Origin: Spirochaetota bacterium
GTDB taxonomy: Bacteria; Spirochaetota; Spirochaetia; CADAEX01
DNA: 33,034 nt
NCBI GenBank assembly: GCA_009786125.1
Contig: WQTU01000124.1
Location: 1-33,034 of the forward strand
Reading direction: 5' to 3'
Part shown: piece by piece, positions 144 through 28,605 of the stretch
Numbering within the stretch: position 1 is the stretch's first letter
Layout: the number at the start of each line of letters is the position of its first letter
Notes under the pieces: model-generated
Databases searched by the model: none
What the model saw: only the letters and a program-made list of their open reading frames with translations
What the model was told of the DNA's origin: nothing
Position numbers and translations under genes: made by a program

Positions 144-2306
144 ATGAAAAAAAGACTTATCACATCTGCACTGCCTTATGTAAATAATATTCCCCATTTA
201 GGCAACCTCATACAAGTTTTGTCTGCCGATGTCTTCGCACGATTTTGCAGATTAAAAGGCTATGAGACCATGTATATCTGCGGTACAGACGAATATGGAA
301 CAGCCACAGAAACAAAAGCTCTTGAAGAAGGGATTACCCCAAAAGAGCTCTGCGATAAATTTTATGTTATCCATAGAGATATTTATGAATGGTTTAATAT
401 TTCATTTAATAAATTTGGAAGAACTTCTACTGATGAACACACAAAAATTACTCAGGGACTCTTTAAAGGGCTTGATAAAAACAACTATATTTGCGAAAAA
501 ACCATTGAACAGCTTTATTGTACAAAGTGCCAGCGTTTTCTTGCAGACAGATATGTGCGGGGCATCTGCCCGCACTGCGAATACGAAGGCGCCCGCGGCG
601 ACCAGTGCGAACATTGCGGCAAGCTGCTTGACCCAACAGAGCTTGTAAAACCGCGCTGCGGAGTTTGTGATTCAGAGCCTGTTGTAAAATCAACAAAGCA
701 CCTCTATGTAAATCTTCCTGCTATTGTGCCAATCCTGGAGCAGTGGATCAATAAAAGATCAGCCGAAGGATTTTGGGCAAAAAACGCCCTGCAGATGACA
801 AAAAGCTGGATGAGGGATGGGTTAAAAGAAAGAGGAATTACCCGTGACCTAAAGTGGGGTATACCTGTTCCCAAAGAAGGCTTTGAAGATAAAGTATTTT
901 ATGTGTGGTTCGATGCGCCAATTGGTTATATTTCCATTACAGCAACACTTACAAAAGAGTGGGAAAAGTGGTGGAAGGACCCCGACAATGTAGAGCTGTA
1001 TCAGTTTATCGGAAAAGATAATATCCCTTTTCATACAGTAATTTTTCCATCTACTCTCCTCGGTTCCGGCGAAAAATGGACAACACTCTTTCACATGTCA
1101 TCAACAGAGTACCTAAATTACGAGAGCGGCAAATTTTCAAAAAGCAAGGGCATAGGAATCTTTGGAACAGATTGCAAAGACTCAGGAATCGCCGCAGATA
1201 TCTGGAGATTCTATATATTTTATAACAGACCTGAAAAGTCTGACTATCTTTTTACCTGGAAAGATTTTCAGGAAAAAGTTAATTCAGAACTCATAGGCAA
1301 TTTTGGGAACCTTATAAACAGAACTTTAACATTTGCCCAAAGATTTTATAACAGCGAAGTAATCGAGGGTGATGCCGGCTCTGTTTTCTGGAGCGATGTT
1401 AGAACATACGAAGAAAAAATTACAGCCCATTTGGACAGGGCAGAACTTAAAGATGCGTACCATGTAATTTTCGAACTCTCTGCTTATGGCAACAAAATTT
1501 TTCAGGATTCCGAGCCGTGGAAAATGAAAAACGAAGACCCGGAAAAAGCGCACAGGCTTATTTCCGACCTTGTTTATCTGGTACGGGACCTTGCGCTTCT
1601 TGTCCAGCCCTATACCCCGTTTACTTCGGAAAAGATTCTTTCCTTTATTGATTCAAAAGATTTTACCTGGGATAAACTTGGCAAGCCTAAGGGGGGAATA
1701 AAAAAAGTTAGCCCGGAGATTCTTTTTACAAAACTCGAAGATGACTTAATTAACAATTTAAGAGAAAAATTTAAGGGAAGCCAGAAAGAAAGAGACGAAG
1801 AAAAAGCTTTAGAAAATACCGGGGAGAAAGTATTTCCCGAAACAGTAGATTTAAGGGTTGCAAAAATAAAAGAAATAAAAAGACACCCCGAAGCGGAAAA
1901 GCTTTATATCGAAATTCTTGATATGGGTAACGGCGAAGAGAGACAAATTGTTTCCGGTCTTGTCCCGCACTATAAAGAAGAAGAGCTTCTTGGGCAAAAT
2001 ATTATAGTTGTATGCAACTTAAAGCCTGCTAAACTGCGCGGCGTTGAAAGCAATGGTATGCTTCTTGCAGCAGAAGACGACAAAACCGTAGAAGTTCTTT
2101 TTGCGCCTGATGCATCTCCAGGAGACAGGGTTGTTCTGTCCGGCTGCAAAGTGCCGGAACAAGAGATGAAAAAAATTACTATCGATAAGTTTTTTGAAAC
2201 AAAACTGGAAGTAAGAGATAATATTGTTTATTGCGGCTCTGCATCTCTTGTATGCGGAAGCAGTATAATTAAAACTGAAAAAGTTGCAAAAGGAAAGGTT
2301 AGCTAG
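144..2306 (+). CDS. metG: Methionyl-tRNA synthetase with C-terminal tRNA-binding domain
   Basis: Cytoplasmic class I enzyme charging tRNA-Met with methionine. The HIGH-type motif is HLGN (18-21) and the KMSKS-type loop is KFSKS (330-334). Four CxxC pairs (C126/129, C142/145, C155/158, C172/175) form the two-zinc-knuckle insertion of the MetG1 type. The anticodon-binding helical domain follows, then an EMAP/Trbp111-like OB fold at about 575-680 (VDLRVAKI, HPEAEKLY, SNGMLLAA), which usually mediates dimerisation and tRNA binding. About 45 residues of uncharacterised tail lie beyond the OB fold. The start is fixed by the family-typical opening MKKRLITSALPYVNN. The TAG stop (2304-2306) lies inside the terminal inverted repeat of hairpin repeat A, so the last residues and the stop may have been set by that insertion. 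Confidence 0.97.
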   Translation: MKKRLITSALPYVNNIPHLGNLIQVLSADVFARFCRLKGYETMYICGTDEYGTATETKALEEGITPKELCDKFYVIHRDIYEWFNISFNKFGRTSTDEHTKITQGLFKGLDKNNYICEKTIEQLYCTKCQRFLADRYVRGICPHCEYEGARGDQCEHCGKLLDPTELVKPRCGVCDSEPVVKSTKHLYVNLPAIVPILEQWINKRSAEGFWAKNALQMTKSWMRDGLKERGITRDLKWGIPVPKEGFEDKVFYVWFDAPIGYISITATLTKEWEKWWKDPDNVELYQFIGKDNIPFHTVIFPSTLLGSGEKWTTLFHMSSTEYLNYESGKFSKSKGIGIFGTDCKDSGIAADIWRFYIFYNRPEKSDYLFTWKDFQEKVNSELIGNFGNLINRTLTFAQRFYNSEVIEGDAGSVFWSDVRTYEEKITAHLDRAELKDAYHVIFELSAYGNKIFQDSEPWKMKNEDPEKAHRLISDLVYLVRDLALLVQPYTPFTSEKILSFIDSKDFTWDKLGKPKGGIKKVSPEILFTKLEDDLINNLREKFKGSQKERDEEKALENTGEKVFPETVDLRVAKIKEIKRHPEAEKLYIEILDMGNGEERQIVSGLVPHYKEEELLGQNIIVVCNLKPAKLRGVESNGMLLAAEDDKTVEVLFAPDASPGDRVVLSGCKVPEQEMKKITIDKFFETKLEVRDNIVYCGSASLVCGSSIIKTEKVAKGKVS

Positions 2307-2465
2307 GGAATCGCTGATTTATTCAATCGAGAATAAATTGCGCAGCATTCCGAACTTGTTCGGGGCTACATTACCTTATTTCCGAATGAAGCGAGTGTAG
2401 CGGGCGTGCTTGCACGCACATTACCGAGCGAATGAGGAAACGCAGCTTTGCTGCGGTATCCCTAG
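2303..2465 (+). repeat. Modular hairpin repeat, copy A (MITE-like, 163 bp)
   Basis: Bounded by the 7-bp inverted repeat CTAGGGA (2303-2309) and TCCCTAG (2459-2465). Inside are four stem-loops in a row: ATTTATTC/GAATAAAT (2317-2338, loop AATCGA), CGAAC/GTTCG (2351-2362), GCGTGC/GCACGC (2404-2417) and CGCAGC/GCTGCG (2441-2455). The segment is about 90% identical by eye to 28315-28471. It encodes no protein and looks non-autonomous. It fills nearly the whole gap between metG and the next gene. Confidence 0.8.
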
Positions 2466-2503
2466 AAAATAGTTAAAATGAATATTTTACTTGAGATCGG
2501 AAA

Positions 2504-3517
2504 ATGAACAATTCTTTTTTAGGCGTAGCCATGGAACCTATAGATGCAAAAAAACTTTCTGAAATTTCCGAATCAGAGCCCGGGGATTCATTTCTTCAAA
2601 CTTTATTCTGGACCAGCTTAAAATCTAATTTTGGCTGGAAGCCTCTTTACTTTTTACTTGATGAGCAGCCTCTTGTTGTACTTGTAAGAAAAATTGGAAG
2701 AAGTTTTTCTATTGTTTATGTGCCTTATGCTCCTTCGGAAAAATATCAGGATAAACTGGAAGAAATATCTCGTTGTCTTAAAGAGTATCTTCCGCGAGGC
2801 TCTCTTTTTATACGTTATGACCTGCCTTGGAGAAACGGCAGCAAGCCTTCTTCTTTATTCAAGAAAGCGGAAGATATACAGCCTGCATCAACAGTAATAA
2901 TTGATATTACCAAAAATAAAGATGTCATCTTGTCTGAAATGAAGAGCAAGACAAGGTATAATATAAAGCTTGCGGAAAAAAAAGGCGTTTCTGTAAAAAA
3001 ATATTCTATTGAAATGCTTGGCGAATGGTACGAGATTTACCGTGAAACATCTGTGCGGGATAAAATAGCTCTTCATTCTTTGAAGTATTATAAAACACTG
3101 TTTGAGCTGGCGCAAGAAAAAGAGTTTGGGGTTGATATAAGGTTATATATGGCAGAAGACGAAGGGAAAAATATTGCCGGAATCGTTACTTGCTTTTATA
3201 ACAAAAAAGCGACTTATCTGTATGGAGCGTCAAGTAATATTGCGAGGGAAAAAATGCCTGCGTATGCTCTGCAATGGAAAGCAATCTGCGATGCAATAGA
3301 TGAAGGCTGTGTTGAGTACGATATGTTTGGTATACCGCCGGACGATAATCCTTCGCATCCCATGCACGGGCTTTACAGGTTTAAGACAGGCTTTGGGGGG
3401 GCGATTGTTCATCGCCCCGGCTGTTATGATTTTTTGCTTAACAAATTTGCATATAAGTTTTACACTATCGCAGAAATTGCAAGAAATTACTATTTTAAAA
3501 AAATCAGAAAGAGATGA
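2504..3517 (+). CDS. FemAB-family peptidoglycan cross-bridge aminoacyltransferase
   Basis: 337-residue member of the FemA/FemB/FemX family, which uses aminoacyl-tRNA to add residues to the peptide of lipid II on the cytoplasmic side. The family hallmark KSKTRYNIKLAEKKG is at 147-161. The C-terminal GNAT-like half ends in the characteristic stretch YDMFGIP with YRFKTGFGG (about 266-297), and the early FLQTLFW also fits. No coiled-coil arm typical of staphylococcal FemA is apparent, so it is closer to the short FemX type. The ATG at 2504 has only a weak GGA upstream; an alternative M10 has no better signal. It heads a tight plus-strand run with the next two genes. The amino acid transferred cannot be read from sequence. 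Confidence 0.85.
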   Translation: MNNSFLGVAMEPIDAKKLSEISESEPGDSFLQTLFWTSLKSNFGWKPLYFLLDEQPLVVLVRKIGRSFSIVYVPYAPSEKYQDKLEEISRCLKEYLPRGSLFIRYDLPWRNGSKPSSLFKKAEDIQPASTVIIDITKNKDVILSEMKSKTRYNIKLAEKKGVSVKKYSIEMLGEWYEIYRETSVRDKIALHSLKYYKTLFELAQEKEFGVDIRLYMAEDEGKNIAGIVTCFYNKKATYLYGASSNIAREKMPAYALQWKAICDAIDEGCVEYDMFGIPPDDNPSHPMHGLYRFKTGFGGAIVHRPGCYDFLLNKFAYKFYTIAEIARNYYFKKIRKR

Positions 3518-3529
3518 CAGGGGGGATGC

Positions 3530-4501
3530 GTGCTTAGTCAAAATTATAAAACGATTGCGATTGTTGTTTTTGTGGTGTCGCTAATTCTGGGAATGATACA
3601 TGCCAGCAACATAGATGTAGCCAGTATACTTGGTATGGGAGGCAGCGAAGAAAGCGAAACTGATGCAGGTAACGATGCGTCGGCAGCTGGTTCTTGTGTC
3701 ATGACAGAAACCATCAGCGAAATCCTTATGCAGTTTTATGAAGAACACCAGCTGCGCGGCGGTATCTCTATTGCTGTTTCGCGCAACGAAAGGCTTGTTT
3801 TTGCCGGCTCTGTTGGTTATGCAGACAGTAATCATACTGTAAGGCTGTTGCCGGAACACAGAATGAGAATAGGCTCTCTTTCGGAAACAATAACCGTAAT
3901 AGCAGCAATGAAACTACTGGAAGAAGGGAAACTTAGCCTGGATGATTTGGTTTTTGAAAGAAATAATGTTTTTGATAATGAAAGCAATATTAGAATAATT
4001 GAGAGAAAAAGCGGAATGACTTATGAAGAATTTGTAAGAGAAAATATTCTCAAACCTTCGGGCATAGATGGGATGAGGTTTTGTGCAAATTTTTCCGGGT
4101 CTGATGAAGCTGAATATATTACTTCTGGCAGAGCTCCGGCCGGAACAGGCGTTTCGCCCGGATGGGTTGCAAATCCCATCGAGTTATTGAAAATATTGGT
4201 TCGTATAGATGGTTTTTCAAATGTAAAAGATATTTTAAGCAGAGAGACAATAAATATTATGACTAATCCTAATGCATTTGGCTGGCGCCTTGCACAGGCA
4301 GGCAGCAGTTGGTTTCACACAGTTAATTTGGCCGGGACTTCATCTGTAATGGGAAGAAGTTCAAATGGTTTCAATTGGGTAATACTAATTAATTACAGCC
4401 CGCGTACTTTTGCACGAGCGGATTTTAATCGCGGCATGGATGATCTGTTTTGGCAAATACATAGAGCAGTCAGAGAATGGCCAGCAGGAACTGAATTATA
4501 G
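3530..4501 (+). CDS. Membrane-anchored beta-lactamase-fold protein, probably catalytically dead
   Basis: 323 residues with an N-terminal membrane anchor (about 7-25), a linker, then a class C beta-lactamase/serine-hydrolase fold. Two characteristic stretches are SGMTYEEFVRENILKPSGI and GTSSVMGR...GFNWVILIN. The motif that should be SxxK reads S116-L-S-E119, so the general-base lysine is replaced by glutamate. The segment that normally holds HTSGL and the YxN tyrosine is shortened and reads NESN, and the HTG/KTG strand reads HTV. All three active-site elements are therefore altered, suggesting a pseudoenzyme that binds rather than cuts murein peptides. The start is GTG with a strong AGGGGGG 5-10 nt upstream. 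It begins 12 nt after the FemAB gene, implying shared transcription and a cell-wall role. Confidence 0.8.
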   Translation: MLSQNYKTIAIVVFVVSLILGMIHASNIDVASILGMGGSEESETDAGNDASAAGSCVMTETISEILMQFYEEHQLRGGISIAVSRNERLVFAGSVGYADSNHTVRLLPEHRMRIGSLSETITVIAAMKLLEEGKLSLDDLVFERNNVFDNESNIRIIERKSGMTYEEFVRENILKPSGIDGMRFCANFSGSDEAEYITSGRAPAGTGVSPGWVANPIELLKILVRIDGFSNVKDILSRETINIMTNPNAFGWRLAQAGSSWFHTVNLAGTSSVMGRSSNGFNWVILINYSPRTFARADFNRGMDDLFWQIHRAVREWPAGTEL

Positions 4502-4511
4502 GAAATGGAGA

Positions 4512-5195
4512 ATGAACAAAACAATTCAAAGCGGACTATTAATAACTTTTGTATTTATATTCTTTTCTTGCGCCAGCGCAGGCAGGGCAATGGCTCCCGA
4601 GGCTTCATTAGCGTCGTTTGATGCTAATGAAACTTCTTTATCGAGGACAAGAGCATCGGGAAACATAGCTGATAGCCGAATGGTTGCATATACAGTAACT
4701 TTGGGATTATCTGTCAGAGATATGGAAGAAACAAGAGCAAGGCTTAGCGAGCAGGTAAGGAAAAATAATGGATTCATTATATGGGTAACGGAGAATAGCG
4801 TAACAGCGCGAATACCGGCGAAAAGTATGGATAATTACTTGCAGAACGCAAGAACACTTGGAAGAATAGACAGAGAAACAAAAACAGGGACAGATATTAC
4901 AGATCAATATCGCGACAATGTTATAAGACTGGAAAGTCTTAGAAATGTACGCGAAAGATATCTGGCATTACTTGAAAGAGCAAATTCCGTGAGTGATATT
5001 TTGAGCATAGAAAGAGAGCTTGAGCGAGTAAATACAGAAATTGAAATAATGGAAGGAAGAATCAGGCATGCAGAATTAAGTGTAGCATATTCACACATAA
5101 CTGTAAGATTTAGAGAGCGGGCAAGACCAGGTCCTGTTGGCTGGGTATTCTATGGATTGTATCAAGGAATAAAGTGGCTTTTTGTCTGGAATTAG
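4512..5195 (+). CDS. DUF4349-type lipoprotein
   Basis: 227 residues from an ATG preceded by GGAG. The N-terminus MNKTIQSGLLITFVFIFFSC is a lipoprotein signal with a relaxed, spirochaete-like lipobox (FFSC, lipidated C20). The body matches the DUF4349 pattern: a beta strand region YTVTLGLSVRDMEETRARL, then FIIWVTENSVTARIPAKSMD, a long charged coiled coil (about 130-190: RNVRERYLALLERANSVSDILSIERELERV in segments), and a closing strand SVAYSHITVRF. A hydrophobic C-terminal segment (WVFYGLYQGIKWLFVW) could be a second membrane contact. The function of the family is unknown. An upstream in-frame ATG at 4410 overlaps the previous gene and was rejected because the signal peptide fixes the start. 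It follows the beta-lactamase-fold gene by 10 nt, so it likely belongs to the same envelope operon. Confidence 0.8.
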   Translation: MNKTIQSGLLITFVFIFFSCASAGRAMAPEASLASFDANETSLSRTRASGNIADSRMVAYTVTLGLSVRDMEETRARLSEQVRKNNGFIIWVTENSVTARIPAKSMDNYLQNARTLGRIDRETKTGTDITDQYRDNVIRLESLRNVRERYLALLERANSVSDILSIERELERVNTEIEIMEGRIRHAELSVAYSHITVRFRERARPGPVGWVFYGLYQGIKWLFVWN

Positions 5196-5212
5196 ATCTA
5201 TTATAAATAAAC

Positions 5213-6106
5213 ATGGAATATATACCGGCAAAAAGTATTGTGCTCAGACCTAAAAACCACGGTTGGTTTGGAACTGATTATAATATGAATATCTACAGAG
5301 GCTGTTCTCATGGCTGCATTTATTGCGATAGCAGAAGCCTTTGTTATCAAATAGAAGATTTTGACAGGGTTAGAGCTAAACAGGATGCCTTGCGCATTAT
5401 AAGAGATGATCTCTTAAAAAAGCGAAAACCAGGAGTAGTTGCTACAGGCGCGATGAGTGATCCATACAATCCGCGTGAAAAAGAACTAAAACTTACAAGA
5501 AACGCCCTTGAATTATTAAACGCTTATCGCTTTGGGGTTGCCATTGCCACAAAAAGCGCACTGGTTGCCAGAGATGTAAATATATTGAAAGACATACAGG
5601 AAAAAGCGCCGGTACTTGTAAAAATAACCATAACAACGGCTGACGATAATCTTGGTAAGATAATTGAGCCAAATGCCTCTTTGCCAAGCGAGCGTTTTGA
5701 TGTGTTAAAAACATTAAGCGAAAGTGGAGTATATGCAGGTGTTTTAATGATGCCAATACTGCCTTTTATTGAAGATACAGAGGAAAATATTATAAATATT
5801 GTGCGCAAAGCAAAAGAGAATGGAGCTCGCTTTATATATCCTGCTTTTGGAATGACTTTACGAGCAGGAAACCGGGAGTATTTTTATGAAAAACTGGATT
5901 TGCATTTTCCGGGACTCAAGGAAAAGTATATTAAGAAATATCATGATCGCTATAATTGCACATCGCCCAAGGCAAAAAAACTCTGGAGTATTTTTGCAGA
6001 AGAGTGCAACAGGCTTGAATTGCGTTATCAAATGAAAAATATAGTTGCTGATTATAAGCGCGGATATGCTGCCAGGCAGTTAAATTTGTTTGAGACTAAC
6101 GCTTAG
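5213..6106 (+). CDS. Radical SAM protein of the SPL/photolyase-like family
   Basis: 297-residue radical SAM protein with the [4Fe-4S] motif C31-SHG-C35-IY-C38 directly after NMNIYRGC. This is typical of the spore-photoproduct-lyase-related group (often annotated SplB-like or Rv2578c-like). GAMSDPYNPREKELKLTR and the later VLMMPILPFIEDTEENI are further family landmarks. The substrate is unknown for this group; DNA repair activity is only a name by homology. The start codon has no Shine-Dalgarno. A TATAAA box at 5202-5207 lies 5 nt before the ATG, so a near-leaderless start is possible, although the -35 is poor and read-through from the preceding gene (17 nt away) is equally plausible. It ends 9 nt from the convergent fluC. 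Confidence 0.85.
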   Translation: MEYIPAKSIVLRPKNHGWFGTDYNMNIYRGCSHGCIYCDSRSLCYQIEDFDRVRAKQDALRIIRDDLLKKRKPGVVATGAMSDPYNPREKELKLTRNALELLNAYRFGVAIATKSALVARDVNILKDIQEKAPVLVKITITTADDNLGKIIEPNASLPSERFDVLKTLSESGVYAGVLMMPILPFIEDTEENIINIVRKAKENGARFIYPAFGMTLRAGNREYFYEKLDLHFPGLKEKYIKKYHDRYNCTSPKAKKLWSIFAEECNRLELRYQMKNIVADYKRGYAARQLNLFETNA

Positions 6107-6115
6107 AATAAGCTG

Positions 6116-6490
6116 TCATATTCGCTGCATTATTAAGAGCCCGCCAAATGTTGCTGCGACACAAATAAAAACGCTTCCCAGAATATAAAGAGCCGAACCA
6201 ATATAATGCCCCTGCTGAAGCAATGCTAAAGTCTCGCTGCTGAATGCAGAAAAAGTGCTAAATCCGCCGCAAAAACCTACTGTCCAGAATAGTCTTGTTT
6301 GCGGAGATAATATTTGCTTGTGGTCTGCAAGTCCGATTATTAAACCAACAGCAAAGCAGGCGATTATGTTCACGATAAAAGTTCCAAATGGAAAATAGTG
6401 CTTGTGCAGCGCAGAAATCCATCTGCCAAGCCCAAATCTTAGGACTCCGCCTAATCCGCTGCCAAAAAATACTACTAAAATTTCTTTCAC
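6116..6490 (-). CDS. fluC: Fluoride ion channel FluC (CrcB)
   Basis: 124-residue, four-helix inner-membrane fluoride exporter of the dual-topology Fluc family, which acts as a homodimer when single. Diagnostic stretches are GGVLRFGLGRW near the N-terminus, FGTFIVNIIACFAVGL in TM2, and GFCGGFSTFSAFSSE in TM3, which carries the central Na+ site and pore phenylalanines. The GTG at 6490 gives the usual family length. An ATG at 6541 would add 17 unlikely hydrophilic residues, and the reading frame runs back to 6622 without support. No good Shine-Dalgarno precedes the GTG: an AGGAG lies about 20 nt upstream, and a TAAAAT box lies 8 nt upstream. I could not recognise a fluoride riboswitch in the leader. 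Confidence 0.92.
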   Translation of the reverse strand: MKEILVVFFGSGLGGVLRFGLGRWISALHKHYFPFGTFIVNIIACFAVGLIIGLADHKQILSPQTRLFWTVGFCGGFSTFSAFSSETLALLQQGHYIGSALYILGSVFICVAATFGGLLIMQRI

Positions 6491-6559
6491 TTTTATATAT
6501 TTTATCGTAGTTTCTCCTGAATGACTATGTGCTGCTTGCATATCTCTATAATTTTTTGC

Positions 6560-6594: not shown

Positions 6595-6615
6595 ATTGTA
6601 TGAAGGGGGTAGCAA

Positions 6616-7256: not shown

Positions 7257-7517
7257 TGTATAGTCAATTCCCGCAGTTTTCATAAAAAATGCCCAAGCCG
7301 GGAATCCACCTCATCAGTATTAACAGAAAAAAAAAGTAACAAAAGTATTGTTGTGGATATTTAATATTGGAGTTATATTATTATGTAAGCGCTGATTAAA
7401 TTTGACTCTAATCATCGCTTACATATTTTTTCTCGTTTTCTTGTAGAAAACTGCGAAAAAAGAATAATAAGGAATGCTGCTTTATTCTCGATTGAATAAA
7501 GCAGCGAATAGTAATAT
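7257..7517. other. Intergenic region before clpS
   Basis: 261 nt with no gene. It holds an ATTCCCG/CGGGAAT inverted repeat with a long loop (7267-7305), an A-rich stretch, and from 7383 onward a rearranged copy of the hairpin repeat. TTGTAG (7441-7446) and TAATAA (7465-7470) with an 18-bp spacer could be the clpS promoter, but this is weak. Confidence 0.5.
7383..7505 (-). repeat. Modular hairpin repeat, copy C (internally deleted)
   Basis: In the opposite orientation to copy B. It contains hairpin H6 (ATGTAAGCG 7383-7391 with CGCTTACAT 7416-7424, plus inner GATTA/TAATC), whose loop AATTTGACTC is shared with copy B. Next is TTTTTTCTCG and a GTTTTC/GAAAAC hairpin. It jumps directly to H1, here a perfect 12-bp stem GCTGCTTTATTC/GAATAAAGCAGC (7476-7505) with loop TCGATT. 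The modules between, present in B, are missing. H6 followed by ATTTTTTCT (7425-7433) would also end the toxin-antitoxin transcript. Confidence 0.7.
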
Positions 7518-7823
7518 ATGTCAGAGAAAACATTCAGTAATATAGAAGAAAATGTTAAGGATGAGATAAAAGAACCAGGTAAATTTGCAATTGTGTTGCA
7601 TAATGACCATTATACAACAATGGATTTTGTCGTAACCATATTAAAAGAGGTGTTTCGCAAAACACCGGCAGAAGCTAATAAATTGATGCTCGATGTTCAT
7701 CAAAATGGGCGGAGCAAGGTGGCAGTTTATCCTTATGATATAGCTGCTACAAAGGTGTGTCAAGTTGAAAACCGTTCGTCGCAGGCTGGTTTTCCTCTTA
7801 GGTGTACAATGGAGAGAGAATAA
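7518..7823 (+). CDS. clpS: ATP-dependent Clp protease adaptor ClpS
   Basis: 101-residue N-recognin that delivers proteins with N-terminal Leu, Phe, Trp or Tyr to ClpA. The core VLHNDHYTTMDFVVTIL corresponds to the canonical LxNDDxTPMDFVV substrate-binding helix. The C-terminus AATKVCQVENRSSQAGFPLRCTME is the classic ClpA-docking end (shown here in part). The start has no Shine-Dalgarno; instead a perfect 12-bp hairpin ends 12 nt before the ATG. Its stop overlaps the clpA start (TAATG). It is the first gene of clpS-clpA-aat. Confidence 0.93.
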   Translation: MSEKTFSNIEENVKDEIKEPGKFAIVLHNDHYTTMDFVVTILKEVFRKTPAEANKLMLDVHQNGRSKVAVYPYDIAATKVCQVENRSSQAGFPLRCTMERE

Positions 7824-17195: not shown

Positions 17196-17229
17196 AATTA
17201 CTCCCATAAAAAACAAAACATTAAAAACC

Positions 17230-17270
17230 TGCTGATTTATTCAGCCGAGAATTGCGAAGCATCAGCAATA
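17230..17270 (+). repeat. Modular hairpin repeat, copy D (degenerate fragment)
   Basis: GCTGATTTATTCAGCCGAGAA followed by TTGCGAAGCAT matches the H1 end of copies A and B with a deletion in the right arm. On the minus strand it lies in the bactofilin leader. There GCTGA/TCAGC followed by GGTTTTT could act as a weak intrinsic terminator or attenuator. Confidence 0.5.
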
Positions 17271-17324: not shown

Positions 17325-17413
17325 GAATGCACGAGTTTTTTCTTTTTCCGGAACCACAATATCTCGCACTATTGCACAGCGACGCTAAGTTTTTTTGATG
17401 GCGGCAATGAGGA

Positions 17414-17451
17414 GGTAATGTAGCCCCGAACAAGTTCGGGGCTACATTACC
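17414..17451 (-). repeat. Perfect 18-bp inverted repeat after the FGE lipoprotein gene (repeat copy E)
   Basis: GGTAATGTAGCCCCGAAC (17414-17431) and its exact complement (17434-17451) are separated by only AA. The right arm matches the GTTCGGGGCTACATTACC segment of copy A. It lies 8 nt past the stop of the minus-strand gene and may act as its terminator, although no long T run follows. Confidence 0.75.
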
Positions 17452-17459
17452 TTAGAATC

Positions 17460-19208
17460 CTAATTTGCAAGGCGCATAATACGGAGGCCAACGTGGTTTA
17501 ACCTGGCATACTGATACCAGGTGGGCCGATATTCAAAATTCGCCCAAGTCGCTGGTCTGAACCATGACCCGCCGCTTAGTCGATTCCGATAATTATCAAA
17601 AGAATCATGATCATTGTGCCACTCATATACGTTCCCGTGTATATCGTATAAGCCCCACGCATTAGGCGCCCTTGTCCCTACCTGGCGTGTTCTGCCGCCG
17701 CTGTTTTCCAATGTCCACGCAATTTCGGCTATTGCCGCCAAATCCCCCGCTGTTAATCCTATCGGCGGACCGACTGGAGGAGTAGGAATTACAAAGCCAT
17801 TTATCCCGTTATGGAAACGTGCTGTCGCTCCGGCACGTCCTGCAAATTCCCACTGCGCGCTTGTTGGCAGTCTGTATCCGTTACCAGGCACTATTGTTAC
17901 TGCTCTCCAGCGGTCAAAGTCTTCGCCTCTGGCTGTCGGCACTAGCCCCCACTGGTTAGTGTTTGTTGTAGGCGCACCGCCTCCTATTGGAACTATCGAG
18001 TACACAGGCGTGCGCCCACGCTGATAGCTTAACCTGTTCGCAAACACTATCGCATCAAACCAGCTTACCATTTCAACAGGAAAGTTTGCTGTTGCGAGAC
18101 CTGCTACATACGTTGCTCTTGTGCCGCCTGCCCTATGAGCACTTGGCGTTGCGCTTATGTTATTGCTGTTTCCGGTCATTACATCCTGCCACTGGTGCTG
18201 AGTTATCTGGTGCCTGCTTATGTAAAAGGGTACATTGCCGTGGGGAATTCTTACCATAACTATTGGAAGCGGTACCGCAACATCGGCAGTTGCAGATATA
18301 GCATTGTTAAATGTTGATATTGCTCTAACTGTTAAGCTGGCGGCAGTTTCATTAGCAGCTACAGTTAAAAGACCGCTTGCGTTATTAATGCTGGTGCCAG
18401 CCGCCTTGGCGCCTGTAACTGTCCATGTTACGTCTTGCGGCGGGTTGTTATCCCCAGCCACAGTTGCGGTAAAAGTTTGGTTTCCGCCCCTGTTCACAGC
18501 AGCGGTAGAAGGGTTTATGGTTACGCCGGTTACGGTTGGCTGCGGAACTGTAACAACGGCAGTTCCGCTTATTGTTGTATCAAGCATTGACGTAGCCCTA
18601 ACTGTTAAGCTGACGGCAGTTTCATTAGCAGCTACGGTTAAAAGGCCGCTTGCGTTATTAATGATTGTTCCAGCCACCCCGCTTTCAACTGCCCAGGTTA
18701 CGTCTTGCTGCGGGTTGTTTGCTCCGTCAACTTGTGCTGTAAAGGTTTGGCTTCCGCCTCTGTTCACTGTAGCGGTAGAAGGGTTTACGGTTACGCCGGT
18801 TACGGTTGGCATTTGGGCTGGGTCGTCTATAACAGTAACTGTTGCCGTCCCGTATCTTGCAGGAGTATGTATCGATGCAGCCCGCACAGTAAGTGTTCCT
18901 GCAGTTTCGTCCTCATGCACGAAAAGGACGCCTATGCCGGAAAGGGTAGTTTCTTCGTGGCTGTGTCCTTCTAACGTCCATGTAACTCCCTGCGGCGGAT
19001 TACCTGTTCCATGTACAATGGCTGTAAATTCCTTTGATGTGCCAACTAATACATATGATTTGCCGGTTACAATAACGCCTGTTACTAGCGTAGTGGTCAT
19101 CAGATCGTAATGATCGCTAGGACCTGCCGGGTTAGCGCAGGCAGCTATAAGCGCGATTATTGCAGCAATTGCTACCAGACCCAAAAAGCATTTTGCCTTG
19201 TTTTTCAT
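17460..19208 (-). CDS. Surface lipoprotein with Ig-like repeats and FGE/SUMF1-fold C-terminus
   Basis: 582 residues. The lipoprotein signal ends at LIAAC24. Three bacterial Ig-like (BIG2-type) domains follow at about 40-128, 134-223 and 224-313. The last two are near duplicates (VTGVTxNPSTAxVNRGG, QTFTA, NNASGLLTVAANETA). The C-terminal 265 residues form a formylglycine-generating-enzyme-type C-lectin fold: PVEMVSWFDAIVFANRL, GYRLPTSAQWEFAGRAG, WGLYDIHGNVYEW and the terminal GGSW...HVGLRIMRLAN. The catalytic cysteines of true FGE are absent, so a binding or adhesin role is more likely than sulfatase activation. The segment after GGSW (FRPATWANFEYRPTWYQYAR) is rich in aromatic residues where relatives usually have Asn. 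AAGGAG precedes the ATG. The gene appears GC-richer than its neighbours. Confidence 0.88.
   Translation of the reverse strand: MKNKAKCFLGLVAIAAIIALIAACANPAGPSDHYDLMTTTLVTGVIVTGKSYVLVGTSKEFTAIVHGTGNPPQGVTWTLEGHSHEETTLSGIGVLFVHEDETAGTLTVRAASIHTPARYGTATVTVIDDPAQMPTVTGVTVNPSTATVNRGGSQTFTAQVDGANNPQQDVTWAVESGVAGTIINNASGLLTVAANETAVSLTVRATSMLDTTISGTAVVTVPQPTVTGVTINPSTAAVNRGGNQTFTATVAGDNNPPQDVTWTVTGAKAAGTSINNASGLLTVAANETAASLTVRAISTFNNAISATADVAVPLPIVMVRIPHGNVPFYISRHQITQHQWQDVMTGNSNNISATPSAHRAGGTRATYVAGLATANFPVEMVSWFDAIVFANRLSYQRGRTPVYSIVPIGGGAPTTNTNQWGLVPTARGEDFDRWRAVTIVPGNGYRLPTSAQWEFAGRAGATARFHNGINGFVIPTPPVGPPIGLTAGDLAAIAEIAWTLENSGGRTRQVGTRAPNAWGLYDIHGNVYEWHNDHDSFDNYRNRLSGGSWFRPATWANFEYRPTWYQYARLNHVGLRIMRLAN
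18270..18809 (-). repeat. Tandem 270-bp coding repeat (two Ig-like domains)
   Basis: The DNA for the second and third Ig-like domains is highly similar with a period of 270-273 bp. For example, CTAACTGTTAAGCTG occurs at 18325 and 18598, and GGTTACGCCGGTTACGGTTG recurs with the same spacing. This is a recent internal duplication that could expand or contract by recombination. Confidence 0.8.
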
Positions 19209-19731: not shown

Positions 19732-19740
19732 TAAGGTAAA

Positions 19741-19816
19741 TAAGGTAAAGTAGCCCCGAACAAGTTCGGGATGCTTCGCGAATTTATTCTCGATTGAATA
19801 AATCAGCGGCTCCTAA
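19741..19816 (-). repeat. Modular hairpin repeat, copy F
   Basis: Contains the H2 hairpin CCCGAAC/GTTCGGG (19755-19770) and the H1 hairpin ATTTATTC/GAATAAAT (19782-19803) with loop TCGATT, then ATCAGCGG. In reverse orientation it matches the first half of copy A. It sits in the probable pta leader, ending about 25 nt before the Shine-Dalgarno. Confidence 0.75.
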
Positions 19817-19849
19817 GGTGTCAATTTGTATATAAATAAGGAGAACGAT

Positions 19850-22693: not shown

Positions 22694-22722
22694 CCGAAGG
22701 GTAATCCCGAAGGTTGTTAGTA

Positions 22723-22760
22723 AAAGAGTATTACGTGCTTGCACATAATACTCTTTATTA
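22723..22760. terminator. Bidirectional terminator between dapA and padR
   Basis: AAAGAGTATTA (22723-22733) and TAATACTCTTT (22746-22756) form an 11-bp stem whose loop contains a further GTGC/GCAC hairpin. The right side is T-rich (TTTATTACATT). The padR stop lies at its edge, so it serves both convergent genes. Confidence 0.75.
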
Positions 22761-23063
22761 CATTACCTCACGGGATAACTCTTTTATGCGGTTTTTTGCT
22801 TCTTCAAGAATCTTCTCGCCTTCTCTGGTTATCGTGTAGTATTTTCTTATTTTGCCGTTTTCTATCTTACTTTCGACATTCAACAACCCCATTTTTTTAA
22901 GATTGTGTAAAATCGGATATAGTGTTCCTGCGCTTATGTTGTATCCGTGATGCTTTAATTCATCAATCATCCAAGATCCATAAAGCGGCTCTTTTTTTGC
23001 GTGGTATAATATATGCACATGGATAAACCCTAAAAAAAGCTTTCGCAAAATAGACTCTTGCAT
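22758..23063 (-). CDS. PadR-family transcriptional regulator
   Basis: 101-residue winged-helix repressor of the short PadR-s2 type. The core is ILYHAKKEPLYGSWMIDELK (in the usual xxLLxxGPxYGYEI position), then YNISAGTLYPILHNLKKMGL, the PadR hallmark, and a wing ending RKYYTITREGEKILEEA. The ATG at 23063 has AAGGAG 8 nt upstream; the frame is open to 23150 but crosses the operator. It is divergent from the transporter, with a perfect 31-bp palindrome between them, so it most likely represses itself and the transporter. The inducing ligand is unknown, although molybdate, sulfate or a related oxyanion would be the natural guess. Confidence 0.9.
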   Translation of the reverse strand: MQESILRKLFLGFIHVHILYHAKKEPLYGSWMIDELKHHGYNISAGTLYPILHNLKKMGLLNVESKIENGKIRKYYTITREGEKILEEAKNRIKELSREVM

Positions 23064-23083
23064 AAGATTTCTCCTTATGGCAT

Positions 23084-23114
23084 AATAACAATATCGTATA
23101 TCGATATTGTTATT
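23084..23114. promoter_or_regulatory. PadR operator (perfect 13-bp inverted repeat)
   Basis: AATAACAATATCG (23084-23096) and its exact complement (23102-23114) are separated by TATAT. It lies in the 98-bp divergent space between padR and the transporter and overlaps the transporter's -35 box. Confidence 0.75.
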
Positions 23115-23136
23115 CGATTTTATTATCTCATATATC
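23107..23136 (+). promoter_or_regulatory. Promoter of the MOT1-type transporter
   Basis: TTGTTA (23107-23112), 18-bp spacer, TATATC (23131-23136). The -35 is inside the right operator arm, so repressor binding would block it. Confidence 0.5.
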
Positions 23137-23161
23137 CATAATAAATTCAAGGAGATTCACA

Positions 23162-24292
23162 ATGAAGAACAGTAAAAATGCGTTTGATCGCCTGGAATGG
23201 GCAGGAGCATTTGGGGATTTAGGTACATTACTACCCTTTGTAATAGGCTATATTGCCATTTTAGGATTGAACCCGTTTGGAGTGCTTGTTTCTTTTGGTA
23301 TATTTTTAATTGCATCAGGCTTATTCTATAAGACGCCCATACCTGTCCAGCCCATGAAAGCACTGGGCGGCGCTGCTATTGCTCAAGCATCTGTAATTAC
23401 CCCAGGCATGGTTTGGGGAGCCGGGCTTTTTACAGGCGTTTTTTGGATAGTGCTCGGGCTTTCTGGAGCGCTTAAATTTGTATCAAAGATAGCTTCAAAA
23501 CCCGTTATCCGCGGCATTGTACTCGGACTTGGCATTTCCTTTATCATTAAGGGGACTGGCTTTATGCGAGAGGATTTGTTAATTGGTTTTATAGCTTTAT
23601 TGCTTACTTTTTTACTGCTCTCAAACAAGCGTATCCCTGCCATGTTCGTGTTGGTTATATTTGGTGTAGCTGCGACTATTATTCGAAATCCCGCTATTAT
23701 GCAGGAATTTTCAGCAATAAGACCTGGTTTTTATATACCGCCATTTGCTTTGAGAGAACTAACTTTACAAGACTTGACAAGCGGTATCTTGATTTTAGCG
23801 CTTGCGCAAATCCCTCTAACTTTGGGTAATGCAGTTATTGCAACTACAGCTGAAAATAACCGCCTGTTTCCTGAGCGCCCTGTAACAGAAAAGAAATTAG
23901 CTACAACAACAGGTCTTATGAATATTGTTTCGCCTTTTTTGGGCGGCGTACCTATGTGTCATGGTGCAGGGGGGATATTGGCTCACAACCGCTTTGGCGC
24001 TCGTACAGGAGGAGCTGTTATTATTATTGGCACAATTCTTCTCGTATTGGGACTATTTTTCAGCGATTCTGTTTTGTTGCTGCTCTCCATGATTCCCGCA
24101 AGCGTATTGGGTGTAATTCTTTTTTTTGCTGGACTGGAACTGGCAATGGCTGCACGGGATGTAGGACCGGAGAAAAATGATTTTTATATCCTGATAATAG
24201 CTGCCGGCTTCTCGATTTGGAATGTTGGTATTGGGTTTTTGGCAGGCTTAATTGCACAAGAAATGATTAAGCGCAATATCTTTAAATTTTAG
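23162..24292 (+). CDS. Molybdate/sulfate transporter of the MOT1 family
   Basis: 376-residue polytopic membrane protein with about 10-11 helices. Signature stretches of the MFS_MOT1 (SulP-related) group are EWAGAFGDLGTLLPFVIGY (12-30), TPIPVQPMKALGG (58-70) and the second-half repeat GGVPMCHGAGG with FGARTGG. The two halves carry the inverted-repeat motifs that form the anion site. Plant MOT1 carries molybdate; bacterial members are usually annotated as molybdate or sulfate permeases, and substrate is not decided by sequence. AAGGAG lies 8 nt before the ATG. It is divergent from padR and ends in a strong terminator. Confidence 0.9.
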   Translation: MKNSKNAFDRLEWAGAFGDLGTLLPFVIGYIAILGLNPFGVLVSFGIFLIASGLFYKTPIPVQPMKALGGAAIAQASVITPGMVWGAGLFTGVFWIVLGLSGALKFVSKIASKPVIRGIVLGLGISFIIKGTGFMREDLLIGFIALLLTFLLLSNKRIPAMFVLVIFGVAATIIRNPAIMQEFSAIRPGFYIPPFALRELTLQDLTSGILILALAQIPLTLGNAVIATTAENNRLFPERPVTEKKLATTTGLMNIVSPFLGGVPMCHGAGGILAHNRFGARTGGAVIIIGTILLVLGLFFSDSVLLLLSMIPASVLGVILFFAGLELAMAARDVGPEKNDFYILIIAAGFSIWNVGIGFLAGLIAQEMIKRNIFKF

Positions 24293-24357
24293 GCCGAAAT
24301 TCGAGTTTTCAAGATAAAATACGTATAGCCATGTCAGGCAATCTAAGCGTCTATGAT

Positions 24358-24400
24358 AAAAGTCAAGCACTTTTTATTAAAAATGTTTGACTTTTTTGTT
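24358..24400 (+). terminator. Terminator of the MOT1-type transporter
   Basis: AAAAGTCAAGCA (24358-24369) and TGTTTGACTTTT (24384-24395) pair over 12 bp with one G-T, followed by TTGTTTCCC. The 122 nt from here to the next gene contain nothing I can identify. Confidence 0.85.
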
Positions 24401-24522
24401 TCCCCAAAAAGTTTTTATACTGAGCCATTTTTGCCTGATGCGTATCTTCTCTATTATATCACACCTCTTGAGGGTTGTTGAACAAGCCTCTTGCTCTTTT
24501 AATGTTGATTGGCAAGATGGGC

Positions 24523-25425
24523 TTAACGGGGAGCTAACGGCCTAATGCCGCTAGTGTTGAATGCCACCGAAAAATTGCCGGTATGCCCCCTTGAGCGAGG
24601 GGCAACTGTTAGTGTAACCGTATCGTTTCTATTGGCCTGGAACTGTTGCTGTCTACTCCATGCCATATCCACATTCGAAAAAATCATTGTTCCATCGGAG
24701 TAATGGGCACTAATAACTGCATCAACCATTGTTCTATTCGCATCCCAATCATAGAGCCAAACGTGATACCTTGTACCTTGCACAACAGGAAAAGTGAAAC
24801 TCCGTGATTGAACGCTGGAAGTAAAATTGCTGCTAGCAAACTGGTTAGCACTCAGTCTTATACCACGTCCAGAACCACCAGATGGCCAAGTAGTGCTTGT
24901 TCCTGGTGTTTCCTCATCAGTTTCCCCAAAAGCCGACATAGCAAGAATGAGGCCATAAAGAAAAACAGCCACAGCTTCATTTCTTAATGCCAATGAAATT
25001 CCAAAATTCATTCTAGGAGTTTCATAAAAGGTGACACCAACATATGGAGTAATTTTCCCATGTGTCCAGGAAAACGGAAGTCCCAACTGCATTAATAAAC
25101 CAGAAGATGTGGTTCTAGGCCCATCTCGATACGAACTATATCTAATGTTTCTATATCCTAATCTACCGGATATTCCTATTACGTTAGTAAAATAATATTC
25201 AGAACTAAGTCCAATGGTATATACAAATGAACGTGCTGGGTTTTCCATTAAAAAACCAATATTCCCAAATGCCAAAAGATTAAATGTACCTTCACTCCTG
25301 TATCCCATAGCTAATTCATATGTGTTTGATTCAGTATCAATATTTGTACCCAATGTTGTTTCAAGTGAAGCACAGCCAGTAATAGATATAAAAATAAATA
25401 TCATCGAGAGATATGGATATTGCAA
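24523..25425 (-). CDS. Lipoprotein with predicted beta-barrel and C-terminal beta-sandwich domain
   Basis: About 300 residues, function unknown. The signal MIFIFISITGC gives a lipobox cysteine at 18. Residues 25-165 alternate strands with aromatic ends (YELAMGYRSEG, FVYTIGLSSEYYF, ISGRLGYRNIRY, KITPYVGVTFYETPRMNFG), like a small outer-membrane barrel. After a Ser/Thr/Gly linker, residues about 187-300 resemble a prepeptidase C-terminal-like sandwich (SRSFTFPVVQGTRYHVWLYD, DTVTLTVAP). The start is doubtful. The first codon of the frame with a start-like triplet is TTG at 25425, without a Shine-Dalgarno, and ATG at 25404 leaves too short a signal. The AAGGGG at 25453-25448 is spaced for an ATC codon at 25437. 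It follows the next lipoprotein gene by 33 nt. Confidence 0.65.
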   Translation of the reverse strand: MQYPYLSMIFIFISITGCASLETTLGTNIDTESNTYELAMGYRSEGTFNLLAFGNIGFLMENPARSFVYTIGLSSEYYFTNVIGISGRLGYRNIRYSSYRDGPRTTSSGLLMQLGLPFSWTHGKITPYVGVTFYETPRMNFGISLALRNEAVAVFLYGLILAMSAFGETDEETPGTSTTWPSGGSGRGIRLSANQFASSNFTSSVQSRSFTFPVVQGTRYHVWLYDWDANRTMVDAVISAHYSDGTMIFSNVDMAWSRQQQFQANRNDTVTLTVAPRSRGHTGNFSVAFNTSGIRPLAPR

Positions 25426-25458
25426 TAATTTTCTGATTGGAACTTCACCCCTTACTTA

Positions 25459-25833
25459 TTAATTATTCCATATCGTATAGCTTATTGAAACAAGCTGAAA
25501 AGAACCGCTATTTGTTGATGTTCTAACCAATATTCCGTTTACGTATATATTGGCTGTCAAACTTCCGGTTGTGGAATTTCCAGCCCGTACATGGGCATGA
25601 AAAGAACGATGGCGATCTATTGTTACGGTGAATGTTTTGCTCCATGGAAGAGCAAAACCAGTAAGTGTATCCGTCGCACCGGTAAAATTTTGATAAGTGA
25701 TATTAGCACTAGGAACTGTTCCAGTTACTTCATACTTTATTTCTACAGTAATTGGAGAAGACCCACAACCTGCTACAATAAATAATGAGAAAACAATTAA
25801 TATCAATATCCAATAGTTTTTATGGAGGTTCAT
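25459..25833 (-). CDS. Small lipoprotein, MmpS-like fold
   Basis: 124 residues. The signal MNLHKNYWILILIVFSLFIV ends in a lipobox AGC (C23). The mature part has a beta-sandwich pattern like the MmpS family and related bacterial lipoproteins: YEVTGTVPSANITYQNFTGA, then FALPWSKTFTVTI, and GSLTANIYVNGILV. In mycobacteria MmpS proteins are accessory to lipid exporters, but no exporter is adjacent here, so only the fold is suggested. The ATG lies 8 nt after an extended -10 box (TGGTATAAT), predicting a leaderless mRNA, with GAACCTCC rather than a Shine-Dalgarno around the start. The following lipoprotein gene is probably co-transcribed. Confidence 0.7.
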   Translation of the reverse strand: MNLHKNYWILILIVFSLFIVAGCGSSPITVEIKYEVTGTVPSANITYQNFTGATDTLTGFALPWSKTFTVTIDRHRSFHAHVRAGNSTTGSLTANIYVNGILVRTSTNSGSFQLVSISYTIWNN

Positions 25834-25840
25834 ATCTATA

Positions 25841-25849
25841 ATTATACCA
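25841..25849 (-). promoter_or_regulatory. Extended -10 promoter of the lipoprotein pair
   Basis: TGGTATAAT on the minus strand, a perfect extended -10 element. The -10 ends 7 nt before the ATG at 25833, so transcription should start at or within a base of the start codon. No good -35 is visible, as is usual for extended -10 promoters. Confidence 0.65.
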
Positions 25850-25974
25850 CAAAATAAGAAAAAACAACATAATTTAATCTTTATTTTATAAATTTACTTA
25901 GAATATGATTTTTTTATACACCCAAATTTATTATATAATGCTTTAGTTGTATAAAATATGAAGTTGGTGCAGCT

Positions 25975-26895
25975 TTATATTGTGTAAATACATCCGCTAA
26001 TTCTTTCAAAAAGCGAAACTATTTGGGAAATCTCAAGCGCTTCGGCTCTTATGGTTGGCGGGATATTTTCCTGGCGCAAAATATTTGTAATTGTCTCGGT
26101 GCTGGCTACTATTTTAAGGTTGTTTAATATTGTTTTTCTTCTTGCCTGAAAAATAGTTCTAAGAAATCGCGAAAATAGTTTTCTGTCTTTGATTCCAGCA
26201 TACTTATTATGCGGAGTCATGGATATAAGCGAAGAAGTTACATCCGGCACAGGGAAAAATGCCCCGCCTTTTATATCTGCTTCGATTTTTATGTTACACG
26301 CAATTTGGCACAAAATAGAAAAAGAAGAATAGTCTTTTGTTCCAGGTTTTGCAGCTATTCTTTGCGCTGCCTCTTTTTGTACTGTAAAAACCATTTTCTC
26401 AGGCACGCTGTTTTCTTCGATAAGAGCTGCGATAATTAAAGAAGCAGAGTTATATGGCAAGTTTCCAAATATTCTGTCTGGCATCCCGGCAGCTTCTTTA
26501 TGTTTTTTCCATGTTTTTATGAAATCGCCTTCGATTACCTCAATTTTGCTGACAAAAAGATTTTTTAAAATTTTTATAAATCCCTTATCAATTTCAAAAA
26601 CAAATAATTTACCTTCTTTCCCATGTTCGTGGCAGAGCGCCTCCATTTTTTCAAGAATAAGAGCTGTCATGTTGCCCAAGCCGGGACCTATTTCCCAAAT
26701 ATTCACCCCTGCACTCCTTCGCGACATCCCTGTTGCTTGCGCAGGGACTGCTGACCCCGGATCTATATCAATGACAGACAAAATATGCTCCCGCACATCT
26801 TTTGATATAAGAAAATTTTGCCCGAACTTTTTTTGCAGAGCAAGACCGTGTGTCGATAGAATATCCTGTATACTTTTCGGAGAATTGTAATTCAT
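25975..26895 (-). CDS. rsmA: 16S rRNA dimethyladenosine transferase RsmA (KsgA)
   Basis: 306-residue SAM-dependent enzyme that dimethylates two adjacent adenines in helix 45 of 16S rRNA during 30S maturation. KKFGQNFL (22-29) is the N-terminal family motif, IWEIGPGLGNMT (66-77) is SAM motif I, VFEID follows, and NLPYN (145-149) is the catalytic loop. The C-terminal small domain ends in FLRTIFQARRKTILNNL. A 17-residue insertion (about 48-64, AVPAQATGMSRRSAGVN) precedes motif I and is not usual. The ATG overlaps the comEC stop (ATGA), so translation is coupled. The 141 nt after its stop are AT-rich with no clear terminator. Confidence 0.95.
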   Translation of the reverse strand: MNYNSPKSIQDILSTHGLALQKKFGQNFLISKDVREHILSVIDIDPGSAVPAQATGMSRRSAGVNIWEIGPGLGNMTALILEKMEALCHEHGKEGKLFVFEIDKGFIKILKNLFVSKIEVIEGDFIKTWKKHKEAAGMPDRIFGNLPYNSASLIIAALIEENSVPEKMVFTVQKEAAQRIAAKPGTKDYSSFSILCQIACNIKIEADIKGGAFFPVPDVTSSLISMTPHNKYAGIKDRKLFSRFLRTIFQARRKTILNNLKIVASTETITNILRQENIPPTIRAEALEISQIVSLFERISGCIYTI

Positions 26896-28256
26896 CTAAA
26901 CCTTTTAAAAAAATCTAATATTTTGAACCTATCATTTTTTACATAAGGGAACATTGTTAAGAATATAACAAAAATGTTAATAATAATTAATACTAAAACA
27001 GTGCCGGAATCTGTTTTATAACCGGGAAATTGTGCGAAAAAATCAGCAAAAAAGTGAATTAGCCAGGAGACGGCTCTTATTAAAAACGAGACAGGCAAAA
27101 CTGCAATATCTGTAAATAGAACAAGTATAACTCCGGGAAAAGCTATCAGCATAAATACCGTAATAAGAAAAGATATAATAATAGAAGCAATGATGCCCGA
27201 AAAATATATTTCGCCGAAAAAAGCAGCAGACAAAATCCACGATGGAAGCTGCGCAGCCATAGTAAAGCCAAACTGGCCTGCAAAAAATGGCGGAAAAAAC
27301 CTGAGAAAAATTCGATAAAAATAGGGGGTGTAAAATATTATGCCCGCCATTGCCAGAAACGAATATTTAAAAGAGAGGTCCCCTGCTTCGTCCGGTGATA
27401 TTAAAATAGTTATTGCATAACTAAGAACAAAGAGCTTGGGAAGGTCAACGAGCCTGCCTGTCATTTTTGCGCAAGTGGTAAGCGAGAAAAAAACAAATGA
27501 GCGCAAAAGCGGCGAAGACATACCTGCAAAAAGCGCAAAGAAAAAATTAAACAAAAGAGCAGCGACCAGCGCTTTTTTCCTGCCCGCAAATTTCTGGAAC
27601 AAAAAGAGCACAAACATCGTTACCACGCCCAGGTGCATTCCCGAAAGCGCAAGCACATGGGCGCACCCGGACTTTCTTATTTTTTCTGCAAGCAATGGGT
27701 GCAAATCTATTCTGTTGCCGGTAAGCAAAGCAGTTACAAGCCCATCGTCGCTTGAGTCTATTTTTGCTATTGCTTCGAATACCGGCTTTGCTATTTTTTT
27801 TCTGTAATAAGTTTGCTCAGATTCTTTAAGCAAAACTACTCTGCGGCAATTTATTAATGGCAGAGATTTAAAATAAAGTTTTTTAAGATGGTCGTACTCT
27901 TCTTCAAAACGGGGGTTAATTACTTCGACGACAGAGCCTCTGTATAAATATTCTCCTCTTGTAATTATTTTTACTGCTCCTTTTGCAGATGCTGTTATAT
28001 TCGTGTTTGAAGTGGCGGAATCTACTCTAATGGTATAAAGAAATCTTCCATTTCTTAGGGGCGTTGAATCCGACAGCAATGTTCCCTGTATGGATACAAT
28101 ACTTTCTGCCGGGAAGGGAAGCTGGGGAAGCGGGTTTCTAAGCAGCGGTAGAAGCATGGTAAAAAGCAAAGCAACCAATACCATTATTAGCAGATCTGCA
28201 TAGTATCTTCTGATTGCTTCGTCGCTTTTCTCTAAAAGCATATTCCTGAATAACAT
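26892..28256 (-). CDS. comEC: ComEC/Rec2-family DNA-uptake channel
   Basis: 454-residue polytopic inner-membrane protein. An N-terminal pair of helices encloses an OB-like soluble part (IVSIQGTLLSDSTPLRNGRF). The competence domain core follows: GLVTALLTGNRI, CAHVLALSGMHLGVVTMFVL and GMSSPLLRSFVFFSL. The C-terminal metallo-beta-lactamase nuclease domain of full-length ComEC is absent. Short ComECs occur in many bacteria, so this need not be a truncation. It would carry single-stranded DNA across the inner membrane if a competence apparatus exists; none is in this window. No Shine-Dalgarno precedes ATG 28256; an alternative ATG at 28241 has AGGA. It overlaps rsmA by 4 nt. Confidence 0.88.
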   Translation of the reverse strand: MLFRNMLLEKSDEAIRRYYADLLIMVLVALLFTMLLPLLRNPLPQLPFPAESIVSIQGTLLSDSTPLRNGRFLYTIRVDSATSNTNITASAKGAVKIITRGEYLYRGSVVEVINPRFEEEYDHLKKLYFKSLPLINCRRVVLLKESEQTYYRKKIAKPVFEAIAKIDSSDDGLVTALLTGNRIDLHPLLAEKIRKSGCAHVLALSGMHLGVVTMFVLFLFQKFAGRKKALVAALLFNFFFALFAGMSSPLLRSFVFFSLTTCAKMTGRLVDLPKLFVLSYAITILISPDEAGDLSFKYSFLAMAGIIFYTPYFYRIFLRFFPPFFAGQFGFTMAAQLPSWILSAAFFGEIYFSGIIASIIISFLITVFMLIAFPGVILVLFTDIAVLPVSFLIRAVSWLIHFFADFFAQFPGYKTDSGTVLVLIIINIFVIFLTMFPYVKNDRFKILDFFKRFR

Positions 28257-28314
28257 GTTGTATTAAGAAACTGCTTTTTTGAAAATTTGATTCAAAATTT
28301 ATGAAAAAAAATAC

Positions 28315-28605
28315 CTAGGGAACCGCTGATTTATTCAATCGAGAATAAATTGTGCAGCATTCCGAACAAGCTCGGAGCTACTTTCCCTTATTTCCGAATG
28401 AAGCGAGTGTAGCGGGCGTGCTTGCACGCACATTACCGAGCGAATAAGGAAACGCAGCTTTGCTGCGGTATCATTTTTTCGTAGCCGGTGTTTTTTCGAC
28501 CGAGCGCGGCACGCTTCGCAGTGCTGCAGTTTTCTGCAAGAAAACGAGAAAAAATGCGGAAGCACTGAATAGAGTCAAATTTAATCAGTGCTTCCCTCGC
28601 TCAAA
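28315..28605 (+). repeat. Modular hairpin repeat, copy B (longest form)
   Basis: Starts with CTAGGGA (28315-28321) and follows copy A closely to 28471 (H1-H4). It then continues with a GTTTTC/GAAAAC hairpin (H5, about 28530-28545) and the 11-bp H6 hairpin GGAAGCACTGA/TCAGTGCTTCC (28558-28595). The loop of H6, read on the minus strand, contains AAATTTGACTC, as in copy C. It appears to have cut off a nitroreductase gene whose 5' end remains at 28621-28707. The gap 28257-28314 before it holds nothing recognised. Confidence 0.75.

Follow-up and report, generated by a model that had tools for sequence, protein, structure and literature searches.

The window analysed here, a stretch of 33,034 nucleotides from a Spirochaetota bacterium (contig WQTU01000124.1, assembly GCA_009786125.1), carries genes for methionyl-tRNA synthetase (metG, ORF 144-2306), clpS, a bactofilin-family protein and phosphate acetyltransferase, and six sites with related, hairpin-forming repeat sequence. 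Copy A (2307-2461, forward) consists of a left end (∼2307-2380) and a B-family module (∼2381-2460), and has lost its right palindrome. It lies between a left target duplication CTAG (2303-2306) and an equal CTAG on the right (2462-2465), and the TAG at 2304-2306 is the metG stop codon. The word CTAGGGA, which the initial annotation took for the terminal inverted repeat (TIR) of this copy, is in fact the 4-bp duplication followed by GGA, with which the true TIR, GGAATCGCTGATT, begins. A full-length copy of a ∼128-bp class lies in reverse orientation at 7385-7511, with its right palindrome at 7385-7422, a linker hairpin at 7423-7469 and its left palindrome at 7470-7511; its forward-strand flanks are TTAT (7381-7384), a decayed target duplication, and TAAT (7512-7515). 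A 277-bp copy, the longest of the window (28319-28595, forward), combines a left end, a B-family module, the linker with an extra insert, and a right palindrome (28558-28595), and is flanked by the left target duplication CTAG (28315-28318) and by CTCG (28596-28599), the duplication with one change. Among the window copies both ends are kept only in these last two. The left-end derivatives are copy A, a decayed remnant upstream of the bactofilin-family gene (17226-17263, forward), and a fragment upstream of the phosphate acetyltransferase gene (19736-19813, reverse) with TAAG flanks at 19732-19735 and 19814-19817. The remaining site is a lone 40-bp palindrome without a TIR (17413-17452, no strand assigned), grown from the small hairpin H2 (AGGTAATGTAGCCCCGAAC-AA-GTTCGGGGCTACATTACCT).

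Three further features of the window were observed. The clpS start codon, at 7518, stands 6 bp past the repeat copy, which parts clpS from the GGAG seen where the site is empty; an AAGGA within the element, with a hairpin after it, might act as a new ribosome site. Just upstream of metG, positions 1-117 hold another repeat, of which at least six more copies exist, several of them at contig ends. The ORF at 17460-19208 (reverse) contains FGE-sulfatase and Ig-like (Big_2) domains as well as two internal tandem repeats of ∼273 bp.

Intact copies of the family, mostly 127-163 bp long, begin and finish with the TIR GGAANCRCTGATT. In the ∼128-bp class the left end is a ∼42-bp palindrome starting GGAACCGCTGATTTATTC-AATCGA-GAATAAATCAGC, the linker folds as TTTTTTCG..GTTTTC..GAAAAC..GAGAAAAAA, and the right end is the 38-bp palindrome GGAAGCACTGATTAGAGTCAAATTTAATCAGTGCTTCC. 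A class of 154-163 bp has an H1 and an H2 hairpin (CCCGAACTTGTTCGGG) in place of the left palindrome. For the 128-mer, folding gives three hairpins with an energy of -51.2 kcal/mol, versus -20.8 for shuffles (z -8.9). Each element end is a palindrome by itself, 38-42 bp long with co-varying arms, and it is uncommon for such an element to be put together from two small palindromes. Changes paired on both sides occur at 7 of the 16 pairs in the right palindrome and 2 of the 12 in the left, where the most variable position shows A-T, C-G, T-A and G-C. Almost all of these changes are Watson-Crick, and the rarity of G-U intermediates suggests that one DNA arm has been corrected by the other, rather than that selection acted on RNA.

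Other hairpins are associated with the family. The module formed by hairpins H3 and H4 belongs to a second dispersed repeat, TTATTTCCGAATGAAGCGAGAGTCGCGGGC-[hairpin]-ACATGACCGAGCGAATGAGGAAAC, found alone in 16 match clusters and within 12 copies of the present family. The proposal that the same stem-loops build all copies stands in that all six sites hold related sequence, but not for H3/H4. A further palindrome, AAGAACCTAC..GTAGGTTCTT, sits within the right end of some copies. The H2 loop downstream of the left end reads TT in 27 of 30 cases, AA in two and otherwise in one, so that frequent inversion of this hairpin was rejected; the apparent flip is mostly a matter of reading direction, and the AA at 19741 results from reading the opposite strand. 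On nine contigs of the same assembly the second dispersed family was seen with a GCGAG..CGAGCGAATGAGGAAAC hairpin, after which AAAGGGT and CCCTTTATT often come, an arrangement that resembles part of a terminator.

The TIR GGAANCRCTGATT is bordered on its outer side by a 4-bp direct repeat with the consensus YTAR. Perfect 4-bp duplications flank 25 of the 67 copies with defined boundaries and none reach 5 bp, while with shuffled flank partners the count averaged 5.7 and never exceeded 14 over 10,000 rounds. The commonest flank words are TTAG (23), CTAA (21), CTAG (20) and TTAA (6). Eighteen of the 25 perfect cases are words that are not self-complementary, such as TTAG/TTAG, CTAA/CTAA and CTAT/CTAT, and are therefore duplications and not extensions of the palindrome; one pair is inverted. 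By an approximate test with mechanically called ORFs of at least 80 codons, the duplication falls exactly at an ORF stop in 10 of 36 bounded copies, as it does at metG, against a background of 9.7% for YTAR sites in intergenic DNA (P = 0.0017). This bias, the strong hairpins and the paired changes in both arms could be read as signs that the copies persist chiefly as RNA elements, either terminators or stabilisers of mRNA 3' ends, with their spread incidental. We consider this improbable: the rarity of G-U intermediates suggests arm correction in DNA, one copy lies a few bp ahead of the clpS start codon, and the stop-codon bias is itself expected from harmless insertion, because YTAR holds a stop codon that is regenerated on insertion and the gene is left intact. 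Rfam covariance models found nothing at gathering score in the window besides two tRNAs, and no match at E up to 1 in three family copies.

We counted 98 loci within 672 kb of the 2.42-Mb genome, many of the fetched stretches having been picked for matches, and only 13 loci in 400 kb of the largest contigs. The density is therefore uneven and the true total uncertain, and the family is present at about a hundred places in the genome. Searched against its own genome, copy A gave at least 44 matches with 40 of 186 candidates scored, and the copy at 7383-7505 gave 74. The TIR occurs 182 times genome-wide against 7 in a reversed control, and TAR-flanked ends (at most one mismatch) 125 times against none. 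Thus the dispersed family of at least six loci that had been proposed is real and extends well beyond the window, while the TIR, the module membership and the H2 flip needed correction. The fold of the 128-bp unit (z = -8.9) and the perfect direct duplications at 25 copies show that the family is not a product of chance. No protein-coding content was found in the copies read, and the elements are mostly 27-280 bp overall. Many contigs start or stop within a copy, and the assembly therefore probably breaks at them.

Comparison with three congeners (G001, G002 and G003) revealed empty sites, as judged from raw flanks, multiple alignments being poor across the gap. The element is absent after metG in all three and before clpS in the two that were read (G001 and G002). 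Before clpS these two read G/AGAGTTATATTATTAAT with ATG close behind; the corresponding window sequence is GGAGTTATATTATTAT-[127 bp]-TAATATATG. Downstream of metG the spacer of G002 is short, about 50 bp. In G001 and G003 an unrelated, GC-rich insert of about 190-280 bp occupies the place of copy A between metG and the next gene, and this position has the look of a hot spot for insertion.

The distribution of the family is patchy. TAR-flanked ends with at most one mismatch number 125 in this genome, 0 or 1 in each of the three congeners, and 0-3 in almost all other Spirochaetia sampled. High counts of YTAR-flanked ends, again with at most one mismatch, were found in Treponema Pcl387_bin87 (155), Spirochaetaceae Cf509_bin4 (135) and a Synergistaceae genome (214), against 0 in the reversed control; from their isolate names the first two are taken to be termite-gut samples. 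Elements in Pcl387_bin87 (L152, L198) share the left palindrome core GATTTATTCAATCGAGAATA and the same order of three hairpins. The sporadic presence, with absence from congeners, suggests horizontal arrival or a lineage-specific expansion. An exact scan of named genomes for the 38-bp palindrome returned no match, and searched phage records gave only weak 48-bp matches, but the degenerate end pattern TARGGAANCRCTGATTAAAT matched at least 118 stretches in named genomes. These include MITEs of ∼27-350 bp with YTAR flanks in Ruminococcus, Lachnospiraceae, Synergistaceae, Gallionella, Methylobacter, Selenomonas, Treponema and others.

The same TIR also bounds eight complete ISs of 1179-1263 bp in viral contigs. 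Seven have perfect YTAR duplications, and the eighth (L321) has one change, CTAA/CTAG. The transposases of the other seven score 214-359 bits on the NCBIfam model NF033581 (IS5_4; cut-off 140), the first 60 residues of the L321 transposase are identical to those of one of these (L300), and both of the proteins searched with Pfam contain DUF772 and DDE_Tnp_1. These ISs come from outside the genus, and their match to the MITEs is confined to the ends. In a MITE-rich Ruminococcus genome the 3' part of such a transposase gene is followed by the same TIR and a YTAR word, and the gene was not found in most other MITE-rich assemblies tested. Three spaced end pairs were dropped, their flanks being unmatched and their ORFs unlike transposases by look. 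No intact IS5-type transposase was found in the own assembly, in which the sole IS5-type sequence is a broken remnant at C111:473-688. A Pfam search of this genome with DDE_Tnp_1 and DUF772 returned only this remnant and ISAs1-type fragments; those on C33, C70 and C129, and more weakly that on C100, read like ISAs1-family transposases, truncated or at contig ends. The C111 remnant lies ∼1 kb from a MITE copy, and its visible end, GGAACCTCAAAAAAC, is unlike the MITE ends.

We regard it as very probable, from ends and flanks, that the repeats are an IS5-group MITE family moved by an IS5_4-type DDE transposase that recognises their ends. The partner's class appears well supported, and the partner itself is presumed from elements elsewhere. 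Mobilisation by some other transposase family with 4-bp duplications, for instance an IS1182-like or an unknown DDE enzyme, seems quite unlikely, even though the genome's one DUF772 remnant is too damaged for classification and no intact partner is present: all eight complete ISs with these ends have YTAR flanks, the seven scanned proteins are IS5_4 by a wide margin, and YTAR is the target duplication reported for E. coli IS5 (PMC10359306). The IS5-group reading agrees with the proposal that a non-autonomous element is moved in trans, which is supported by the TIRs, the duplications, the empty sites and the full ISs with the same ends. The search for a transposase with matching ends was successful elsewhere, and in this genome led only to the broken remnant.

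The other half of the original interpretation, that the repeats are REP-like, is not supported. REP/BIME sequences, which are associated with RAYT transposases, are intergenic hairpins in modular combinations, and the many intergenic, modular hairpin copies seen here resemble them. Spread by a REP-associated tyrosine (Y1) transposase is nevertheless hardly credible, as no Y1_Tnp match in the genome passes the cut-off (best E 0.079) and the family has TIRs and direct 4-bp duplications, both of which REP/RAYT systems to our knowledge lack; the duplications by themselves largely refute this alternative. Correia/NEMIS, RUP and ERIC elements are 100-160 bp long, intergenic, hairpin-forming and presumed to be moved in trans. 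They have TA duplications and other end sequences, unlike the 4-bp YTAR duplications and GGAANCRCTGATT ends found here. From E. coli IS5 and the IS5_4 group, whose YTAR duplication and DUF772 plus DDE_Tnp_1 transposase recur in the full elements with matching ends, the repeats differ in encoding nothing, in their size of mostly 27-280 bp and in the lack of an intact IS5 copy in the assembly. Also related in kind are BrickBuilt and MITE464/MITEPgRS of Porphyromonas gingivalis, non-coding MITEs whose ends also match IS5-family ISs (PMC4596501). Those ends are of GAGACC or ACGTCA type and their duplications vary (PMC4596501), whereas here the ends are GGAANCRCTGATT, with a uniform 4-bp YTAR duplication, and either end is palindromic over its full length. 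As the initial annotation suspected, no named family with this build was found in the literature searched, and to that extent the family is new; its kind, IS5-derived MITEs, is known.

In the mechanism that we propose, an autonomous IS of ∼1.2 kb would produce a DDE transposase of the NCBIfam IS5_4 kind (DUF772 plus DDE_Tnp_1), which, judging from the matching ends and duplications, would recognise the ends GGAANCRCTGATT(A/T)A and mobilise the element. Joining of the element to a staggered cut at YTAR would leave the 4-bp direct duplication. The basic unit would be the three hairpins, that is the ∼42-bp left palindrome, the linker hairpin and the 38-bp right palindrome, and diversity could have arisen by loss of one end, capture of the H3/H4 repeat family and insertion of a further small palindrome. 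The autonomous partner, not intact in the assembly, may have been lost or have been resident only briefly, or its sequence may have collapsed during assembly.

Even smaller units may be involved. Lone palindromes of 27-44 bp carry YTAR flanks, below the size of 50-1000 bp that is usual for MITEs (PMC4596501). With TTAA or CTAG flanks on such units a duplication and an extended palindrome look alike, but three have direct flanks that are not self-complementary: C101:1565-1606 (42 bp, TTAG/TTAG), L203 (44 bp, CTAT/CTAT) and L208 (27 bp, TTAG/TTAG). On the strength of these duplications we tentatively suggest, as a possibility short of an even chance, that the mobile unit is a palindrome of 27-44 bp in which two IS5-type ends face each other, and that the 128-bp element is a miniature composite transposon of two such units and a linker, able to gain other repeats likewise. 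The lone units may themselves be mobile, or they may be deletion products.

The family probably accounts for many contig breaks in genomes of this type, and several gut bacteria have heavy MITE loads. Apart from its series of small substrates and its shared ends, the family is an ordinary type of repeat. The ends make one IS5-group sequence and the YTAR rule common to MITEs of Spirochaetota, Synergistota, Firmicutes and Proteobacteria, and the lone palindromes offer a natural series of shrinking substrates, down to 27 bp, that bears on how little DNA an IS5 transposase needs.
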